Part shown: one piece after another, positions 49,262-57,779 of the stretch
Layout: each line of letters begins with the position of its first letter
Numbering within the stretch: position 1 is the first letter of the stretch
NCBI GenBank assembly: GCA_002733715.2
Contig: NVWQ02000072.1
Coordinates: 1-58,330, forward strand
Reading direction: 5' to 3'
Origin: Methylophaga sp.
GTDB taxonomy: Bacteria > Pseudomonadota > Gammaproteobacteria > Nitrosococcales > Methylophagaceae
Length of the DNA stretch: 58,330 nucleotides
Translations under genes and position numbers: made by a program
The notes under the pieces: generated by a model
Database searches by the model: none
What the model was told of the DNA's origin: nothing
The model's input: only the letters and a program-made list of their open reading frames with translations

Positions 49262-50734
49262 TTAATGCGCCGCAACGGTTCGCCCTTTAGCCCATTGACG
49301 TAGTTCACCTATTTTTTCAGACATGACAATAGCGAGTGGCTGTGTTCTAAATAATTCATCAATCACTATTTCAGTATTGGGTATCACATTTTTAGCATCA
49401 GCAGAATAAATAGCACTAATCACCGCTTGTTCAATCTCGGCACCACTAAATTCAGCACTATTGACAGCTAATTTATCCAGATCAAACGTATCTGCATTGA
49501 GTTTTCTTTTAGCTAAATGAATTCTAAAAATTTCTTTTCTGACTGCACGATCAGGTAAATCTACAAAGAAAATTTCATCTAAACGTCCTTTACGAATTAA
49601 TTCAGGAGGCAAGCTTTCAATATCATTTGAAGTGGCAACAATAAAAGAGCCTTCATTAGATTCCGCCATCCACGTTAATAATGTGCCTAATAATCGGGTA
49701 GAGACACCATCATCATTATTATTTTGCGATAAGGCTTTTTCAATTTCATCTATCCAAACAACACATGGCGTCATTACATTGGCAACATCAAGTGCTCGGC
49801 GAAGGTTCTTTTCCGTTTCACCAATATATTTATTATACAAAGCCGCCATATCAAGTCGTAATAAGGGTAATTTGAATTGCCCCGCTACCGCTTTGGCGGC
49901 CAAACTTTTTCCGCTTCCTTGCACACCCAATAATAATATACCCTTCGGTGCATCTTGATCTGGCTTAGTTTCTAATAACGCTTTTTCACGAATTTTTAAC
50001 CATTTCTTCAAATTGGCTAGCCCTGCAACATCAGAAAAACTAGCCGTATCGGCTTCATATTGAATTACACCATCTTTGCTAAACAATTCATATTTGGCTT
50101 CTTGTACTCTTTTCACATCTTTATGGGTAATAGCGCCATCATCAACGATCGCTTGCCGAATCAAGCGACGTGCATCTAGAGTAGTTATGCCTGATAAATT
50201 TGATACCATTTGATTCATTGCTATTTTATCTGTTTTTACCGCTGCACCCGTTTCCATTTGCCACTTACGTGCTTCATCTTGCAAAATAGATTGTAGAATA
50301 TTCTTGTCCGGCAACTGCAAATGGAAACGCATACACCACGGTGCTAATTCTTCTGGTATATCCAGACTATGGGTAATAAAAATAAGCCGTCGAGGTGTTT
50401 TCTCAAAGTTGTAAGCAATTTCTTTAATATAGCGAATAGCGATAGGATCAGATAAATATGGGTGAAAATCCAGTAATAGATAATAACCTACATCTGCACT
50501 AAATTTTATATGCTTAAGCACATCATTGGGTGCATCCGTATATTCAATTGCACCGCTCAGCTTTAGTTGAGCATTTTTCAATCCTTCAGTTGCTGACCAA
50601 CGAAAAATCGCACTATTGAGTTTTATCCCAAAACGGATAAAAAGATCAACAGCTCTTGGCTCTTCTTGTGTTTCAATTACGATAATGGGCGTGGAACTAC
50701 GTAGCGCTATTTCTAAATCTTTAAGTTCTGGCAT
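49262..50734 (-). CDS. Ycf46-like AAA+ ATPase inside the mod operon
   Basis: 490 residues. An N-terminal domain of about 230 residues with a degenerate P-loop-type fold (STPIIVIETQEEPRAVDLFIRF; ADVGYYLLLDFHPYL) is followed by a complete AAA+ module: Walker A LLGVQGSGKSLAAKAVAGQ near residue 270, Walker B CVVWIDEIEKAL, sensor 1 FIVATSNDIE, arginine finger region IRKGRLDEIFFVDLPDR, sensor 2 FSGAEIEQAV. The two-part layout matches the Ycf46 family, known from plastids, cyanobacteria and many proteobacteria; biochemical function is not established. It lies between modA and modB, 77 nt and 21 nt away. A chaperone role for molybdenum cofactor enzymes or transport is only inference. Confidence 0.8.
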   Translation of the reverse strand: MPELKDLEIALRSSTPIIVIETQEEPRAVDLFIRFGIKLNSAIFRWSATEGLKNAQLKLSGAIEYTDAPNDVLKHIKFSADVGYYLLLDFHPYLSDPIAIRYIKEIAYNFEKTPRRLIFITHSLDIPEELAPWCMRFHLQLPDKNILQSILQDEARKWQMETGAAVKTDKIAMNQMVSNLSGITTLDARRLIRQAIVDDGAITHKDVKRVQEAKYELFSKDGVIQYEADTASFSDVAGLANLKKWLKIREKALLETKPDQDAPKGILLLGVQGSGKSLAAKAVAGQFKLPLLRLDMAALYNKYIGETEKNLRRALDVANVMTPCVVWIDEIEKALSQNNNDDGVSTRLLGTLLTWMAESNEGSFIVATSNDIESLPPELIRKGRLDEIFFVDLPDRAVRKEIFRIHLAKRKLNADTFDLDKLAVNSAEFSGAEIEQAVISAIYSADAKNVIPNTEIVIDELFRTQPLAIVMSEKIGELRQWAKGRTVAAH

Positions 50735-50811
50735 AGTTAACTAGCTTTGATTTGTGGTAATTACAGAATCTTAAGTATGCCATAAACTAGTATTAAAAGA
50801 ACTTGAAGAAG

Positions 50812-51564
50812 TTATAAAAATCCATATTCAGAAAAAATAGTTTTGGCTTCTTTTTGCTGAATAAATTTCATCAACTGCATAGCATTGTCAGAGGCTCCCT
50901 GAATTATAATTCCTTGTTGCTGTAGCGTTGCATCTAATTTTATAAATACTCCCTGAGAAGCAAGTTTTGGCTGAATAATATGTCCATAAGGTACCAATCC
51001 CGCATCAACTGTAGATGATAGAGCAAATTGTACTGCTTGCGATGCATTTTCAGCTATGAGTAGATGCGGTTGAATTTCCTGCCAGATCCCTAGGTTTTCC
51101 AATTCTCTTTTAGCAGCCTGACCATAAGGAGCATGGCGAGGGTTTGCAATGGCTATTTTATTAAGCTTACCTTGTTCTAGTGCTATTTTCAGACTGAGTA
51201 AACCCTCTTCAATATTTAATGATGAATGATGTGATGCAAATAAGGCTAATTGCGCCTTCGCATAGTTAACAGGCTCACCTACCGTAAGATCTAATTTTCT
51301 CAGCCTCTGAATATAATAGGGATCAGCAGATAAAAACACATCAAATGGTGCACCATGTTGAATTTGTGTTGTTAGAGTGCCTGATGCCGCATAACTTATT
51401 GCTAGCTTGTGACTTGTACCTTGCTCAAAGACTTTAGCCAGTTCAGGCAAAACATAACGCAGGTTAGCAGCTGCTGCAACGCGAATTTCGTCTGCTTGTA
51501 GCGGCAATGTAAAACACATAAATAAAAGACTTAAAAGGTACTTTGAAATTTTTCTGATCTCCAC
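50812..51564 (-). CDS. modA: Molybdate-binding periplasmic protein
   Basis: 250 residues. Signal peptide ending PLQA, then DEIRVAAAANLRYVLPELAK, ISYAASGTLTTQIQHGAPFDVFLSAD and KIAIANPRHAPYGQAAKREL, the ModA signatures; AENASQAVQFALSSTVDAGLVPYG completes the site that binds the oxyanion. First gene of modA-AAA-modB-modC. The only normal in-frame start that keeps the signal peptide is a GTG at 51564, which abuts the T-run of the pnp terminator and has no Shine-Dalgarno; a GGAG just after it would instead suit an AUU five codons on. The start is therefore uncertain. Confidence 0.88.
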   Translation of the reverse strand: MEIRKISKYLLSLLFMCFTLPLQADEIRVAAAANLRYVLPELAKVFEQGTSHKLAISYAASGTLTTQIQHGAPFDVFLSADPYYIQRLRKLDLTVGEPVNYAKAQLALFASHHSSLNIEEGLLSLKIALEQGKLNKIAIANPRHAPYGQAAKRELENLGIWQEIQPHLLIAENASQAVQFALSSTVDAGLVPYGHIIQPKLASQGVFIKLDATLQQQGIIIQGASDNAMQLMKFIQQKEAKTIFSEYGFL

Positions 51565-51618: not shown

Positions 51619-53712
51619 CTAGTCTGAGCTTTCTTCATTCACTGCTTTCATGCTTAAACGAATACGACCTTGACGATCTACTTCAAGTACTTTCACTTGA
51701 ATTGTGTCACCTTCAGATAATTTGTCACTTACATTTTCAACTCGCTCATCCGAGATTTGTGAAATATGAACCAAACCATCTTTACCTGGCAAAATCGTTA
51801 CAAATGCACCGAAGTCCATTAATTTAGCAACGCGGCCTTCGTAGATACGGCCCACTTCAACGTCAGCAGTAATATCTTCGATACGACGTAATGCATCTTG
51901 CCCTGCATTTAAATCTGATGAGAAAATTCTTACCGTACCATCATCATCAATATCAATAACCGCACCTGTTTCTTCAGTCAGTGCACGGATAGTCGCACCA
52001 CCTTTACCAATTACGTCACGAATCTTATCTGAGTTGATTTTGATTGTGATAATACGTGGCGCATATTCTGACATCTCTTCACGGTGTGATGAAAGGTTAG
52101 CGTTCATTGTTTCAAGAATCGTTAATCGACCATCACGTGCTTGTGATAATGCCGTTGTCATGATTTCTTCATTGATGCCTTCAATCTTGATATCCATTTG
52201 AAGTGCTGTGATACCTTTTGCAGTACCGGCTACTTTAAAGTCCATATCGCCTAAGTGATCTTCATCACCTAATATATCAGTCAATACAGCGTAACCGTTG
52301 TCTTCTTTAATCAAACCCATTGCAATGCCAGCAACAGGTGCTTTAATTGGCACACCCGCATCCATTAACGCTAAAGAAGTACCACAAACAGAAGCCATTG
52401 AGCTTGAACCATTTGATTCCGTGATTTCTGATACAACACGAATAACATACGGAAAATCTTCAGCTGAAGGCATTACTGCTTGGATACCTCGTTTTGCTAA
52501 TTTACCATGGCCGATTTCACGACGCTTAGGCGAGCCAACAAAACCTGTTTCACCCACACAGAATGGAGGGAAGTTGTAATGCAACATAAAACGATCACGG
52601 TATTCACCTTCAACCGCATCAATCATCTGTGCATCACGTTCAGCACCTAGTGTTGCCACAACAATCGCTTGTGTTTCACCACGTGTGAACAATGCGCTGC
52701 CATGTACACGAGGCAATACCGTTGTTTCAACAGTTACTTGACGTACTGTTGATGTATCACGACCATCAATACGAGGTTCGCCAGCAATGATTCTGCCACG
52801 CACTAATTCTTTTTCAATTTTTGCAAATGCTGCTGTGATTTCATCAACAGGTAAATCATCATTTTCAAGTGCTAATGCTTCAAGTGTTGCATTGCGCACA
52901 TTGCCTAACTCGTCTTGACGCGCTAATTTATCACTGATTTGGTATGCCGCTTCAATACCTGACAATGCTTTTTCTTTAACCGCATCAAAGATAGCAGGAT
53001 CTTTTTCTGGTGCAGTCCAATCCCATGCTTCTTTACCCACTTCAGCTTTTAACTCCTTCACTAGAGTAATCGCTGCTTGTAATTTTTCATGGCCAAACAT
53101 AACAGAGCCAAGCATTATTTCTTCTGATAATTCAGCAGCTTCTGATTCAACCATTAGAACAGCACTATCAGTACCGGCGACAACCAAATCTAAGTCACTC
53201 GTTAGCAATTGCTCTTTGCTTGGGTTCAGTACATATTCACCATCGATATAACCAACACGTGCACCACCAATCGGGCCATTGAATGGAATACCAGAAATCG
53301 CTAATGCAGCTGAGGCACCAATCATTGCAGGAATATCAGGGTCAATGGCTGGATCTAATGCCATTACTGTTGCGATAACTTGAACTTCATTCAAGAAGCC
53401 TTTAGGGAATAATGGACGCAATGGACGGTCAATTAAACGACATGTTAATGTTTCTTTTTCACTAGGACGACCTTCTCGTTTGAAAAATCCACCTGGAATT
53501 TTACCTGCTGCGTATGTACGTTCTTGGTAGTTAACCGTCAACGGGAAGAAACTTTGACCCGGTTGGACGTTCTTTTTACCAACAACCGTCACCATTACAG
53601 ATGTTTCGCCTAAGCTAGCAATGATTGCCCCGCTTGCTTGACGTGCTACCTTTCCAGTTTCAAGCGTTAAAGTATGATCGCCATATTGAACCGATTTTAT
53701 TACTGATTTCAC
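51619..53712 (-). CDS. pnp: Polynucleotide phosphorylase
   Basis: 697 residues. 3'-5' phosphorolytic exoribonuclease of the degradosome. Two RNase PH-like domains (residues 1-210 and 310-540) with [34 protein letters not shown] and the catalytic Asp region [16 protein letters not shown]; then a KH domain with [20 protein letters not shown] and an S1 domain with [29 protein letters not shown]. Length agrees with E. coli (711). It follows rpsO as usual, with a strong hairpin in its 5' leader. Confidence 0.97.
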
Positions 53713-53775
53713 TTTTCTGTTCCTTATCGTTCATCCGGCCTATTCCGAAATAAACTTATAATTTAATTTCTAAAC

Positions 53776-53815
53776 AAATACGCCCCCGAGGTCATAAGAC
53801 TTCGGGGGCGTATTT
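53776..53815 (-). terminator. Hairpin between rpsO and pnp
   Basis: A perfect 14-bp stem (core CGCCCCCGA with TCGGGGGCG; arms 53776-53789 and 53802-53815, 12-nt loop) lies 64 nt before the pnp ATG. The T-run after it on the minus strand is short and broken, so it may be an rpsO terminator that leaks, or the processing hairpin of the pnp leader. In E. coli both a terminator and an RNase III-cleaved leader stem occupy this gap. Confidence 0.7.
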
Positions 53816-53890
53816 TTAAATACTAACCCTGCAATCGATACATTGCGAAAGCACGGGGTTATACATATTCTTTATTGCTTCTTGCAACGC

Positions 53891-54160
53891 TTAACGACGT
53901 AGGCCAAGGCTTGCAATCAATTCACGGTAACGCGTGATATCTTTCTTTTTCAAGTAATCTAACATTTTACGACGACCACTTACCATTTTAAGTAGACCTT
54001 GACGTGAATGATGATCATGAATGTTTTTTTCGAAGTGACCAGAAAGGTCTGCAATACGTGCTGTTAATAGTGCAACTTGTACTTCAGCAGAACCAGTATC
54101 GCCTTCTGAGCGCTGATATTTACTAATTACTTCTTGTGTTTTTTCTAGTGATAATGACAT
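53891..54160 (-). CDS. rpsO: 30S ribosomal protein S15
   Basis: 89 residues from the ATG at 54160, identical in length to E. coli S15. The frame is open four codons further to a TTG, but GGAG lies 6 nt before the ATG. Conserved [37 protein letters not shown] and the end [15 protein letters not shown]. It binds 16S rRNA early in 30S assembly. Upstream is the inserted M16 peptidase gene where truB would be expected. Confidence 0.97.
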
Positions 54161-54182
54161 TAAAAACTCCAACTTTATTAAT

Positions 54183-54205
54183 GTAGCCTGTTTTAAAAAG
54201 GCTAC
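54183..54205 (-). promoter_or_regulatory. Hairpin in the rpsO leader
   Basis: GTAGCCT pairs with AGGCTAC (arms 54183-54189 and 54199-54205, 9-nt loop), 22 nt before the rpsO ATG. S15 represses its own mRNA in many bacteria by binding structured leaders. Whether this hairpin does that is unknown; it is too weakly T-flanked to be a terminator. Confidence 0.4.
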
Positions 54206-54322
54206 GAGCTAAATTCTGGATTACCTCAGCGCCTAATAGAACAGGGACCAAAATATCCAACCATTTAAAGAGCAGGTATTTTACTGACTTTTTATTGCAT
54301 ATTCAAGCTCTTCCTATTTTTT

Positions 54323-56287
54323 CTAAATAAGGTGCTTTTCTAAATCTTCTTTAAGATGCTGTGCATTATTATTTCTAATGTAAACCTTACTGCCATTAGT
54401 TAAGATTATTTCTAAAAGTGGCTTCCAAAATAAAATAGAAGCCCCGAAACTTTTAAAGGATGTATTTGGCTTCCAGCTGCTTATTTTAATATCTGCAATA
54501 TCTTCATTTTGAATAGTTTTGACACGATGACCGATAAGACATATGCCCTTTTTTGTGACCACTAGCCGGGCATAATAAGAAAATAAATAACGGCAAAGCA
54601 GCAAAAATAACAAAATACCTAAAACCATATCACTTATAGTCCATATATAACTATAAGGCACGTCAATGCTATAAATATAGGCATTGTTACCGACAATATA
54701 AGTCAATACTAAATATTTTATCCATTCCCATAATAATGCCGATAGATAATATATAGCTATAATATAAAGGAATCCTATGAACCTATTGCTGATTCTCCGA
54801 CTCATTATAATATCTCTATATGCACAGGCCACTTTTCGGTCAGTCATATCAAAATAATAAAGTCTGAAATAGATAATAATCATCGCCACGAAAGACAGTA
54901 AACTTAAGACCGATATATCATATGGGAAAAAATGATATTCACGCGATATAACAGAATACTGACGGTTATCTACAAAGGTTTCTTTTAATACATTGCGAAA
55001 GTTTTCATGGTCGATATTTTCAAAAAACTGAAATGAAGAATCCATGCTATCAAACTCTTCTTTTAAGTATTGCGTAGTGCCGATAAGTTTCATCAAGCTG
55101 CCACTGTCGTGCTCAATAGAAGTATAGTGTTTTTTATACTCTCTTAGAGCCTCATCTATTGTCTCATCCGACAAACTTTCTAAATCATCATTGATCGCTT
55201 CGCGCACCGCTATAATATTCGTTTCAAATTCATCATGTAGCCCGTCAAAATAAATATAGGCAAGTCTTGCTTTACCCCGATTTGTACCCGAGGCATAAAT
55301 CGAATAAGTATGGCCTAAATCATTGCGCAGGTTTTGCTGTAACCGAAGAGCAAGGTTATCTAAATATGCATTAATAATTAGGTATTTCATATAATCATCC
55401 ATGATATATTTCACCCCAATATAACCACCATTTTCAGATGTGCCTTCTAGATATAGATGATAGGGTATTTGATTAAGCTGAGGTGTTTCAACAGGCTCAA
55501 CTGCCTTTTCTGTTCCTTCTTTATTTATCGAGCCATAATGCATTTGCACATGCTCTTTCATTTTCAGTACATCAAAATTCCCTGCAACTTTTAATATCAT
55601 ATTAGCTGGGTAATAATAGGCATCATAATGAGCCATTACCTCTTCTAAAGTGAATGTCTGGTTATTGATTTTCTGATTGAAATACGCAGGTTGTGTAGTT
55701 GCATCATCTAAGGAAAAATCATCTTTGTAAATGTCCGGTTGAGGAGGCGCTAGCGCTTCCATGGTTTTTGCAAGATACCACAAGGGTTTATCCAGCCATT
55801 CATACGCACCTATTTCTGTTTGAACAGCTCCTTTTTCACTGACTAAATCTTCGATCTCTACCTGTTTATCAAATAGCATTCTTGCGAATTGTTCAACAAT
55901 CCAAAAGGATTTTTCACTTCTTATAGTAGCGTTATAGCCTGTTTTATAGCGCGTGGTATAACCGTTCATATAGGTCGCACCTTCCTCTTTGATATAATCC
56001 ACGTAGTCGCGATGAGGAATTCTTTTATCACGGAATACTATATGCTCAACCAAATGTGAAAGCCCTAATGTTTTCTCATCTTCAACATCTGTACCCACTG
56101 CAACAGTCAGCTCTACCTGGGTATTTTCGGCTTTATCATCGCTCAGCAGATACACTTGTAAGCCATTATCAAGTTTCAAATAGACAATATCTTTGTAAGG
56201 ATCGTCTTCAATAGCAGCATTGAGCGAAAAACTTATGAAGAAAAATAATAGATAGATAGATTTCATTAGTTTGAAGCTTATTTCCAT
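54323..56287 (-). CDS. Membrane-anchored M16 zinc peptidase fused to a PH-like domain
   Basis: 654 residues, unusual architecture. Signal peptide FFFISFSLNAA; then a full M16 peptidase unit: inverted zinc motif HLVEH at residues 78-82 with the third ligand Glu near residue 158 (VQTEIGAYE), and the M16_C half with LRNDLGHTYSIYASG near residue 340. After about residue 450 come three TM helices (about 455-480, 505-535, 548-572) and a last domain of 80 residues (YARLVVTKKGICLIGHRVKTI; LEIILTNGSKVYIRN) that reads like a bacterial PH domain. Alternative start ATG 56266. It is 23 nt after truB and breaks the usual truB-rpsO adjacency. The catalytic motif is intact; substrate unknown. Confidence 0.8.
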   Translation of the reverse strand: MEISFKLMKSIYLLFFFISFSLNAAIEDDPYKDIVYLKLDNGLQVYLLSDDKAENTQVELTVAVGTDVEDEKTLGLSHLVEHIVFRDKRIPHRDYVDYIKEEGATYMNGYTTRYKTGYNATIRSEKSFWIVEQFARMLFDKQVEIEDLVSEKGAVQTEIGAYEWLDKPLWYLAKTMEALAPPQPDIYKDDFSLDDATTQPAYFNQKINNQTFTLEEVMAHYDAYYYPANMILKVAGNFDVLKMKEHVQMHYGSINKEGTEKAVEPVETPQLNQIPYHLYLEGTSENGGYIGVKYIMDDYMKYLIINAYLDNLALRLQQNLRNDLGHTYSIYASGTNRGKARLAYIYFDGLHDEFETNIIAVREAINDDLESLSDETIDEALREYKKHYTSIEHDSGSLMKLIGTTQYLKEEFDSMDSSFQFFENIDHENFRNVLKETFVDNRQYSVISREYHFFPYDISVLSLLSFVAMIIIYFRLYYFDMTDRKVACAYRDIIMSRRISNRFIGFLYIIAIYYLSALLWEWIKYLVLTYIVGNNAYIYSIDVPYSYIWTISDMVLGILLFLLLCRYLFSYYARLVVTKKGICLIGHRVKTIQNEDIADIKISSWKPNTSFKSFGASILFWKPLLEIILTNGSKVYIRNNNAQHLKEDLEKHLI

Positions 56288-56310
56288 TAACTATAGATTC
56301 ACTGGGGGCA

Positions 56311-57228
56311 CTATACCGCAACAAACACACGTTTGGGCGCGACGATTCCTTGCTCCGTCATTTCACCTAAACCAATAAACTGCTTATTGGCGTCAAATAA
56401 TCGTACCTTTTCGCCGTCAAAATCCTGGTTAACTTTAATTGTTTGGCCATGCCTTAAAGCATCGACCATGTCATCCGTTGCATGAATACTAGGCCAATCT
56501 GGAAGTGCATTTTCTGCTGCTAACAATTCATCATCTAAGTGCTGCAGACCTTGCTCAGCAATTTCTTCTAGCTGTTCAATCGTTATCGCTTGTTCAAGAT
56601 CATACCCTGCGGCAGAAACTCGGCGCAACATGATGACATGTCCACCACTTCCTAGTTTATGGCTGATATCTTCAACCAAGGTGCGAATATACGTGCCTTT
56701 GCTACAGTGCACATCTAAAGTAAAACTTTCAGTTGTTATCGATAACAATTGAATATCATAAATAGTGATTCGACGTGATTTACGTTCGACCTCTATACCT
56801 TGTCGCGCCAGTTTATATAAAGGTTGACCTTGATATTTAAGTGCAGAAAACATGGGGGGTACTTGATCTTGCTCACCCATGAATTCGGGTAATAAATTTG
56901 CAACATCTTGCTCTGAGAAAGTAGGAGTTTCACTGGTATTCAGTACTGCACCGTCAGAATCACCACTGTCTGTTACTACACCAAGTTGACAGGTAACATG
57001 ATAGCGCTTATCAGCATCTAATAAATAGGATGAGACTTTAGTCGCGTCACCTAAACAGATTGGCAACACACCCGTTGCCAATGGATCAAGCGCACCCGTA
57101 TGACCTGCCTTTTTTGCATCAAAGAGGCGCTTAACTTGTTGTAAAACGTGATTTGAACTGCGGCCAGTTGGCTTATCTATAATCACAATACCTGTGATAT
57201 TTCGGCCTTTTTTATTACGTCGTCCCAT
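56311..57228 (-). CDS. truB: tRNA pseudouridine-55 synthase
   Basis: 305 residues. Makes pseudouridine 55 in the T-loop of tRNA. KPTGRSSNHVLQQVKRLF near residue 20 and AGHTGALDPLATGVLPICLG, with the catalytic Asp near residue 49, are the TruB signature; KGTYIRTLVEDI and the C-terminal PUA-like part (RLFDANKQFIGLGEM) follow. Its start codon and its Shine-Dalgarno (GAGG) lie inside one arm of a 166-bp palindromic element that fills the gap to rbfA. Confidence 0.96.
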   Translation of the reverse strand: MGRRNKKGRNITGIVIIDKPTGRSSNHVLQQVKRLFDAKKAGHTGALDPLATGVLPICLGDATKVSSYLLDADKRYHVTCQLGVVTDSGDSDGAVLNTSETPTFSEQDVANLLPEFMGEQDQVPPMFSALKYQGQPLYKLARQGIEVERKSRRITIYDIQLLSITTESFTLDVHCSKGTYIRTLVEDISHKLGSGGHVIMLRRVSAAGYDLEQAITIEQLEEIAEQGLQHLDDELLAAENALPDWPSIHATDDMVDALRHGQTIKVNQDFDGEKVRLFDANKQFIGLGEMTEQGIVAPKRVFVAV

Positions 57229-57391
57229 GGGGCACCTCTATTTATTCTGTTTGAACAGATTTGTACCTGAGAGATTCAAGAACAAGGCGAAGAACGTAAT
57301 CAATAGTGAGCTATTTGTAAGGTTTTCAACGAAGTTATTGGATTTCTCAGGTGCGAAGATGTTAATCATGAATAAATAGAGATGTCCCATG
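57226..57391. repeat. 166-bp imperfect palindrome filling the rbfA-truB gap (MITE-like)
   Basis: The terminal 22 nt (57226-57247 and 57370-57391) are inverted copies with 20 of 22 matches, including a perfect 12-bp CTCTATTTATTC/GAATAAATAGAG. Inside, the arms keep pairing without gaps at 36 of 59 positions by my hand alignment, best around CCTGAGA/TCTCAGG and AATAG/CTATT at the centre. The whole element can fold into one long hairpin. The left terminus contains the truB ATG and its Shine-Dalgarno. It looks like a non-autonomous miniature element; no transposase is present and no second copy was seen in the window. Confidence 0.85.
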
Positions 57392-57404
57392 CTAATTTGG
57401 GCGC

Positions 57405-57779
57405 TTAATCGTCTTTAGGCAGATCTTTGTTTGCCTCAGATATTAGCTCATCCATATGAAAGCCATGTTCAAGCGATTTATCATAATGAAAACGTAGTTC
57501 TGGAATATTGCGTAACTCAACACGACTGGCTAAACGGCGACGTAAAAATCCTGCTGCATTAGTAAGACCAGCAATACATTCTTTGATATCTTCTTCTGAA
57601 TTATCGGTTGTTAGGCGTGTCACTAACACTTTGGCGTATTTCATATCAGCGGTAACGTTAACATGAGATACCGTTACCATGCCTACGCGCGGATCAGATA
57701 CTTCATGTTGAATCATTTGGGCAAGCTCACGCATAATGAGCTCACCAATTCGATTCGATCGACTAAATTCTCTTGCCAT
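57405..57779 (-). CDS. rbfA: 30S ribosome-binding factor A
   Basis: 124 residues from the ATG at 57779, which gives MAREFSRSNRIGELIMREL, the family opening. The frame is open 41 codons further but that part lies within infB. The ATG is one base after the infB stop, so translation is coupled. KH-like fold with DPRVGMVTVSHVNVTADMKYAKV and ELRFHYDKSLEHGFHMDELI. Needed for 16S rRNA 5' end maturation and cold adaptation. Last 14 nt before the palindromic element. Confidence 0.96.
   Translation of the reverse strand: MAREFSRSNRIGELIMRELAQMIQHEVSDPRVGMVTVSHVNVTADMKYAKVLVTRLTTDNSEEDIKECIAGLTNAAGFLRRRLASRVELRNIPELRFHYDKSLEHGFHMDELISEANKDLPKDD

Follow-up and report, generated by a model that had tools for sequence, protein, structure and literature searches.

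How did a gene for an M16-type peptidase with a membrane and PH-like extension come to lie between truB and rpsO in a Methylophaga genome, and what could its product do there? We analyzed the whole 58,330-nucleotide stretch of Methylophaga sp. contig NVWQ02000072.1, here called the window, in which a frame of 654 codons is open and intact at 54323..56287 of the minus strand by ORF analysis. Four genomes encode an orthologue of this protein, out of 57 searched in the family and 63 in the order. The four carriers are the window's own genome (G000), Methylophaga NORP65 (G013), a Methylophaga MAG (G023), and UBA652 (G031). Translation probably starts at codon 8 (window 56266): the ATG that G023 has in place of codon 1 is out of frame, and the UBA652 ORF opens at the codon corresponding to codon 8. 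See Table 1 for the coordinates of all features.

Table 1. Features of the M16 gene and its surroundings in the window. Residues are numbered along the 654-codon frame; the names truB and rpsO are read from the sequences.
Feature	Position	Strand	Basis or remark
Probable coding sequence	54323..56266	(-)	647 aa, starting at codon 8 of the 654-codon frame; range includes the stop codon
Signal-peptide-like N-terminus, residues 8-25 (MKSIYLLFFFISFSLNAA)	56213..56266	(-)	hydropathy and sequence reading
Peptidase_M16 domain, residues 47-163	55799..56149	(-)	Pfam, 56.9 bits
Zinc motif HLVEH, residues 78-82	56042..56056	(-)	alignment
Candidate third zinc ligand E158	55814..55816	(-)	alignment including BHP
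Peptidase_M16_C domain, residues 212-384	55136..55654	(-)	Pfam
Candidate R/Y pair R321..Y328 (RNDLGHTY)	55304..55327	(-)	BHP alignment and conservation
TM1, about residues 457-477, predicted to run from periplasm to cytoplasm	54857..54919	(-)	hydropathy; charges
Probable first PH-like strand, residues 493-498, before TM2	54794..54811	(-)	model and VIA
TM2, about residues 503-526	54710..54781	(-)	hydropathy; charges
TM3, about residues 546-568	54584..54652	(-)	hydropathy; charges
Main part of PH-like domain, residues 574-654	54326..54568	(-)	model, Foldseek, VIA
truB, upstream neighbour, 23 bases before the 654-codon ORF	56311..57228	(-)	
rpsO, downstream neighbour	53891..54172	(-)	
Promoter-like site before rpsO, TTGAAT-17-TAAAAT	54278..54306	(-)	about where empty-site similarity resumes

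The M16 unit and its membrane helices

The initial annotation had described an intact M16 unit with an HxxEH motif, and profile searches bear this out. Both Pfam domains score well above their cut-offs, Peptidase_M16 with 56.9 bits against 22.3 and Peptidase_M16_C with 55.9 bits against 23. The HLVEH motif and E158, the final residue of EKGAVQTE, are identical in the four alignment rows that cover them and align with BHP. Furthermore, RNDLGHTY aligns with REKRGLCY of BHP from Bacillus halodurans (PDB 3hdi), in a weak second stretch with an i-Evalue of 0.095, and is identical in the four rows covering that stretch. The pattern R-x6-Y is a loose one, with two further instances in the same protein (337 and 449). 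An R/Y pair completes the M16 active site in the account of a 2025 M16 protease review (PMC12731061). Judged by these motifs, the single chain is a complete M16 unit with HxxEH, a distal glutamate, and a candidate R/Y pair. A full-length structure prediction from five alignment rows was poor (pLDDT 37), and its M16 part is not usable.

A hydropathy scan recovered the three helices that had been placed after the M16 unit, along with an N-terminal signal-like segment. Lysine and arginine are absent from the TM2-TM3 loop in all four copies. Across the copies compared, net charges range from +3 to +5 in the TM1-TM2 loop and from +2 to +6 in the PH part. Because the positive-inside rule allows loop charges to be read as topology, the M16 unit is predicted to be periplasmic and the PH-like part cytoplasmic, the side that had been suggested for it. 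The M16 unit itself is acidic, with net charges of -33, -27, and -24 in the three full-length copies versus -19 and -12 in an ordinary M16 pair resident in the genome. This acidity may perhaps be just a trait of a marine exported protein.

The M16 gene is kept by purifying selection. We obtained dN/dS values of 0.090 against G013 and 0.078-0.080 against the two G023 pieces; the value of 0.056 against UBA652 rests on saturated dS. The M16 part alone gives 0.04-0.07. The PH part is less constrained, at 0.25 (G013), 0.17 (G023), and 0.09 (UBA652, saturated dS), over 87 codons only.

The C-terminal module

Residues 447-654 matched no Pfam family above chance. We modelled these 208 C-terminal residues alone from four rows, with a mean pLDDT of 58; most of the PH (beta) part reaches 71-79, its loop 44-55. 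The model has seven strands, one before TM2 (493-498) and six after TM3 (574-578, 581-585, 589-593, 597-603, 624-629, and 634-638), followed by a C-terminal helix (642-653). A Foldseek search with this model gave E-values from 0.003, with none of 467 matches at or below 0.001. The best 50 of the 467 are nearly all domains that we take, by their titles, to be PH, PTB, FERM-type, FACT-type, or bacterial PH domains; an exception among the matches listed is 8xvu_E, a chemokine. VIA gave Z scores up to 10.6, over 95 residues at 3.3 Å for its best match, an unnamed Leishmania protein, and 105 of 996 chains reached Z 8.

In 49 of the best 50 VIA rows, the aligned range, defined by its first and last aligned residue only, starts at or before model residue 48. 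This suggests that the TM2-TM3 hairpin is inserted in the PH-like domain, which it seems to split in the model. We regard the C-terminal module as PH-like with the moderate confidence of that model. An earlier reading of this region, as an 80-residue PH-like domain following the helices, stands for the fold, at moderate confidence; the probable first strand sits before TM2.

Of the bacterial PH domains proposed for comparison, bPH_2 (PF03703) had no match to the protein and matched in none of 24 family genomes. Membership in the YcxB family (PF14317) was also considered and is not supported, as the HMM had no match to the protein and none in its own genome. The hhalign probability of kinship with YcxB was 0.1-0.2%, versus 85-99% between YcxB subsets, in a comparison whose sensitivity is limited by the four close rows on the query side and which used 9 of 14 recovered loci, with ends trimmed by eye and L111, L113, L121, L122, and L123 left out. 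Searches for relatives of the module in sampled genomes returned nothing convincing outside the carriers, either with the single sequence in 369 class genomes (next best E 0.0055, in a frame with two stops) or with a profile in 398 phylum genomes (next best E 0.011). The plasmid collection held no match to it.

Distribution and insertion at the truB-rpsO gap

As had been noted for the window, the gene occupies the gap between truB and rpsO, and it does so in G000, G013, and G023, which belong to one genus; the G023 copy is split over two contig ends. Restricted to the better family assemblies, the orthologue count is 2 of 36. We found truB in 54 of the 57 family genomes and no match to it in UBA652. 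The UBA652 copy of the M16 gene is flanked by what, from the translations, are presumably an Rrf2/IscR-like regulator and suf genes, and an FKBP-type gene. When 30 truB loci were examined, 26 had rpsO 149-192 bases away, measured between alignment ends, three were the carriers, and one was cut by a contig end.

The sister genome G017 lacks the gene and has a truB-rpsO gap of 158 bases. A TruB tree of 29 genomes groups the three carriers as a clade with 96% ultrafast bootstrap and places G017 as their sister, with 100% for the four. Similarity between G017 and the carriers resumes at about the promoter-like site of rpsO. The simplest reading of these sequences is that about 2 kb was inserted once, in an ancestor shared by the three carriers. 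The UBA652 copy is 66% identical and would fit either gene transfer, in either direction, or differential loss. Acquisition had initially been proposed partly from A+T-richness. A late arrival is upheld by the empty site in G017 and the TruB tree, but base composition lends it no evidence, with a third-position GC of 0.318 in the M16 gene versus 0.317 in truB; that of pnp is 0.265.

We also scanned the locus for signals and repeats. Promoter-like sites numbered 11 against a shuffle mean of 13.9, i.e., no excess, and three terminator-like sites were found versus 2.2 expected; the sole one upstream of the M16 gene on its strand lies inside truB. An Rfam scan of 53500-57600 gave no match at the gathering score. 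There were no inverted repeat pairs of at least 14 bases, and none of the six two-copy families of direct repeats of at least 14 bases spans both gene junctions. In G023, the end of truB that precedes the M16 gene holds a palindrome at L025:7326-7358 whose 10-base arms (ACCATTCAAT ... ATTGAATGGT) match perfectly. The G023 TruB ends in different residues, and the palindrome there looks like a small repeat element; among the window and the loci compared, it was found only in G023 loci. After pnp, window positions 49262-51564 encode an AAA ATPase and an extracellular solute-binding protein (SBP_bac_11), the latter of what we take to be the molybdate-binding type. Similar ORFs in the same order occur in G013 and G023.

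A survey of other genomes for the same fusion, as had been suggested, found the combination of M16 unit, membrane helices, and PH-like module in a few close relatives only, among the genomes sampled. At E ≤ 1e-10, the full-protein profile matched the window's genome and 12 others among 369 class genomes, these 12 only within profile positions 1-252. Among 15 loci checked, 14 have a long HxxEH frame and none has the C-terminal helices, several frames being cut by the locus end. Plasmid matches (33 records) cover at most 63% of the protein in the best 20, and phage matches (5 records) at most 37% in the matches listed, in both cases within residues 1-450. No PHROGs family matched at E ≤ 0.01. 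In the open-licence literature, we found no title describing such an M16/PH-like protein, and the word "transmembrane" is absent from the main text of the 2025 review (PMC12731061). The build appears unusual and has so far been seen only in a few close relatives.

Partner, function, and closest known systems

The initial annotation had pointed out that no partner subunit is encoded nearby. This is correct for the neighbourhood, but the genome does encode an ordinary M16 pair elsewhere. In that tandem, the first chain (458 codons) has HQLEH but lacks R-x6-Y, and the second (437 codons) has REKRGLTY, with one further R-x6-Y instance (167), but lacks HxxEH. This tandem with divided motifs lies at L138:5688-8352 (G000 C1), beside genes that presumably correspond to ftsY, ftsE, and ftsX. 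Within its own genome, our protein has a single further match, with 26% identity over query residues 34-153, so its gene did not arise by recent copying of the resident pair.

Since HxxEH and the candidate R/Y pair sit on one chain, this M16 chain need not have a partner, and a homodimer is the natural inference by analogy with BHP, which is described as a stable homodimer (PMC12731061). A homodimer cannot be assumed, however, because TTHA1264 of Thermus is a homodimer in the crystal and yet works with a neighbouring partner, according to the same review. Pairing of the M16 unit with one of the resident chains instead of with itself seems very improbable to us. The ordinary pair is there to offer a chain in all five genomes examined, but one of these is G017, which has the pair without the fusion gene, and the fused chain carries both motifs itself.

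We propose, at a probability of about 0.5, that the protein is an inner-membrane-anchored, periplasm-facing M16 oligopeptidase that works as a homodimeric clamshell and clears short, perhaps basic, peptides. Two M16 chains would close into one periplasmic clamshell, as in BHP. TM1 would carry the chain into the cytoplasm, where the PH-like domain, split by the TM2-TM3 hairpin, would sit on the membrane's cytoplasmic face. The membrane module would serve chiefly to keep the protease at the membrane, and perhaps to pair it. Its acidity would give the M16 unit a preference for short basic peptides close to the membrane, for example antimicrobial peptides or signal-peptide remnants; in mitochondrial processing peptidase, a strongly negative cavity binds positively charged signal peptides, as the review reports (PMC12731061). 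The gene itself would have arrived in the truB-rpsO gap through one event, in the common ancestor of the three same-genus carriers.

A transmembrane sensor would use the same parts differently. Movements of the periplasmic clamshell as it opens and closes on peptides could be relayed via the three helices to a PH-like domain that binds a protein or lipid partner, or the PH-like domain could control the peptidase. Peptidase and PH-like module do stay on one chain in all four carrier genomes with both parts conserved, and in the model the first PH strand and the rest are seemingly joined via the hairpin, which would couple membrane and domain. However, no evident effector gene adjoins the gene in the three genomes with housekeeping neighbours or among the regulator, suf, and FKBP-type neighbours in UBA652, and by dN/dS the PH part is less constrained than the M16 part. 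We consider a sensor unlikely, and prefer the anchor role to sensing by parsimony only. A bolder version, in which the protein would found a new class of transmembrane receptor-peptidase whose homodimeric periplasmic M16 clamshell reports peptide capture or cleavage via the hairpin-split PH-like domain and whose C-terminal module would lack recognisable relatives beyond its lineage, strikes us as quite unlikely.

Self-protection is similarly doubtful; here the anchored peptidase would destroy basic peptide antibiotics or bacteriocins at the membrane. Such a role would suit the patchy distribution (4 of 63 order genomes), the two different genomic places, and the acidic M16 unit, and PH-domain membrane proteins take part in the transport of the bacteriocin enterocin DD14 in the account of PMC8657885. 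Against it, no PADLOC family matched at E ≤ 0.01.

An M16 peptidase linked across the inner membrane to a PH-like module in the cytoplasm, on one chain, would show how such an enzyme can be placed, and perhaps read out, at a membrane. The housekeeping-flanked insertion and the sister's empty site make both the gain and the function testable.

Several known systems share a part of this build. On the C-terminal side, the DUF1696 bacterial PH domains (PDB 3dcx and 3hsa) resemble the module with VIA Z scores of 9.5 and 9.3 over 91 and 95 residues, although identity is 9% and 7% and the comparison involves chains of 103 and 112 residues only. YcxB-type proteins (PF14317) look alike by eye, with an N-terminal segment, a TM hairpin, and a short domain, but have no profile relationship, and the members read are not fused to a peptidase. 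The core proteins of the bc1 complex are M16 relatives whose M16 units are held at a membrane, in the review's description (PMC12731061), but via other subunits, not through helices and a PH-like module of their own, and on the mitochondrial matrix side. Pitrilysin (M16A), which the review gives as periplasmic (PMC12731061), has a similar N-terminal half (NCBIfam pitrilysin, E 7.6e-11), although positions 47-256 of a 961-position model match; assignment to the pitrilysin equivalog NF011681 was rejected at a score of 40.7 versus a cut-off of 765. The best solved relative is BHP (BH2405, a YmxG-type M16B peptidase), with an E-value of 4.3e-9 for the single sequence and 4.7e-11 for the profile, in a strong alignment over about 128 N-terminal positions only. 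The 421-residue chain in its PDB entry lacks a counterpart of the helices and PH-like module, but like our protein, BHP combines HxxEH and R/Y in the one M16 unit of a single chain.
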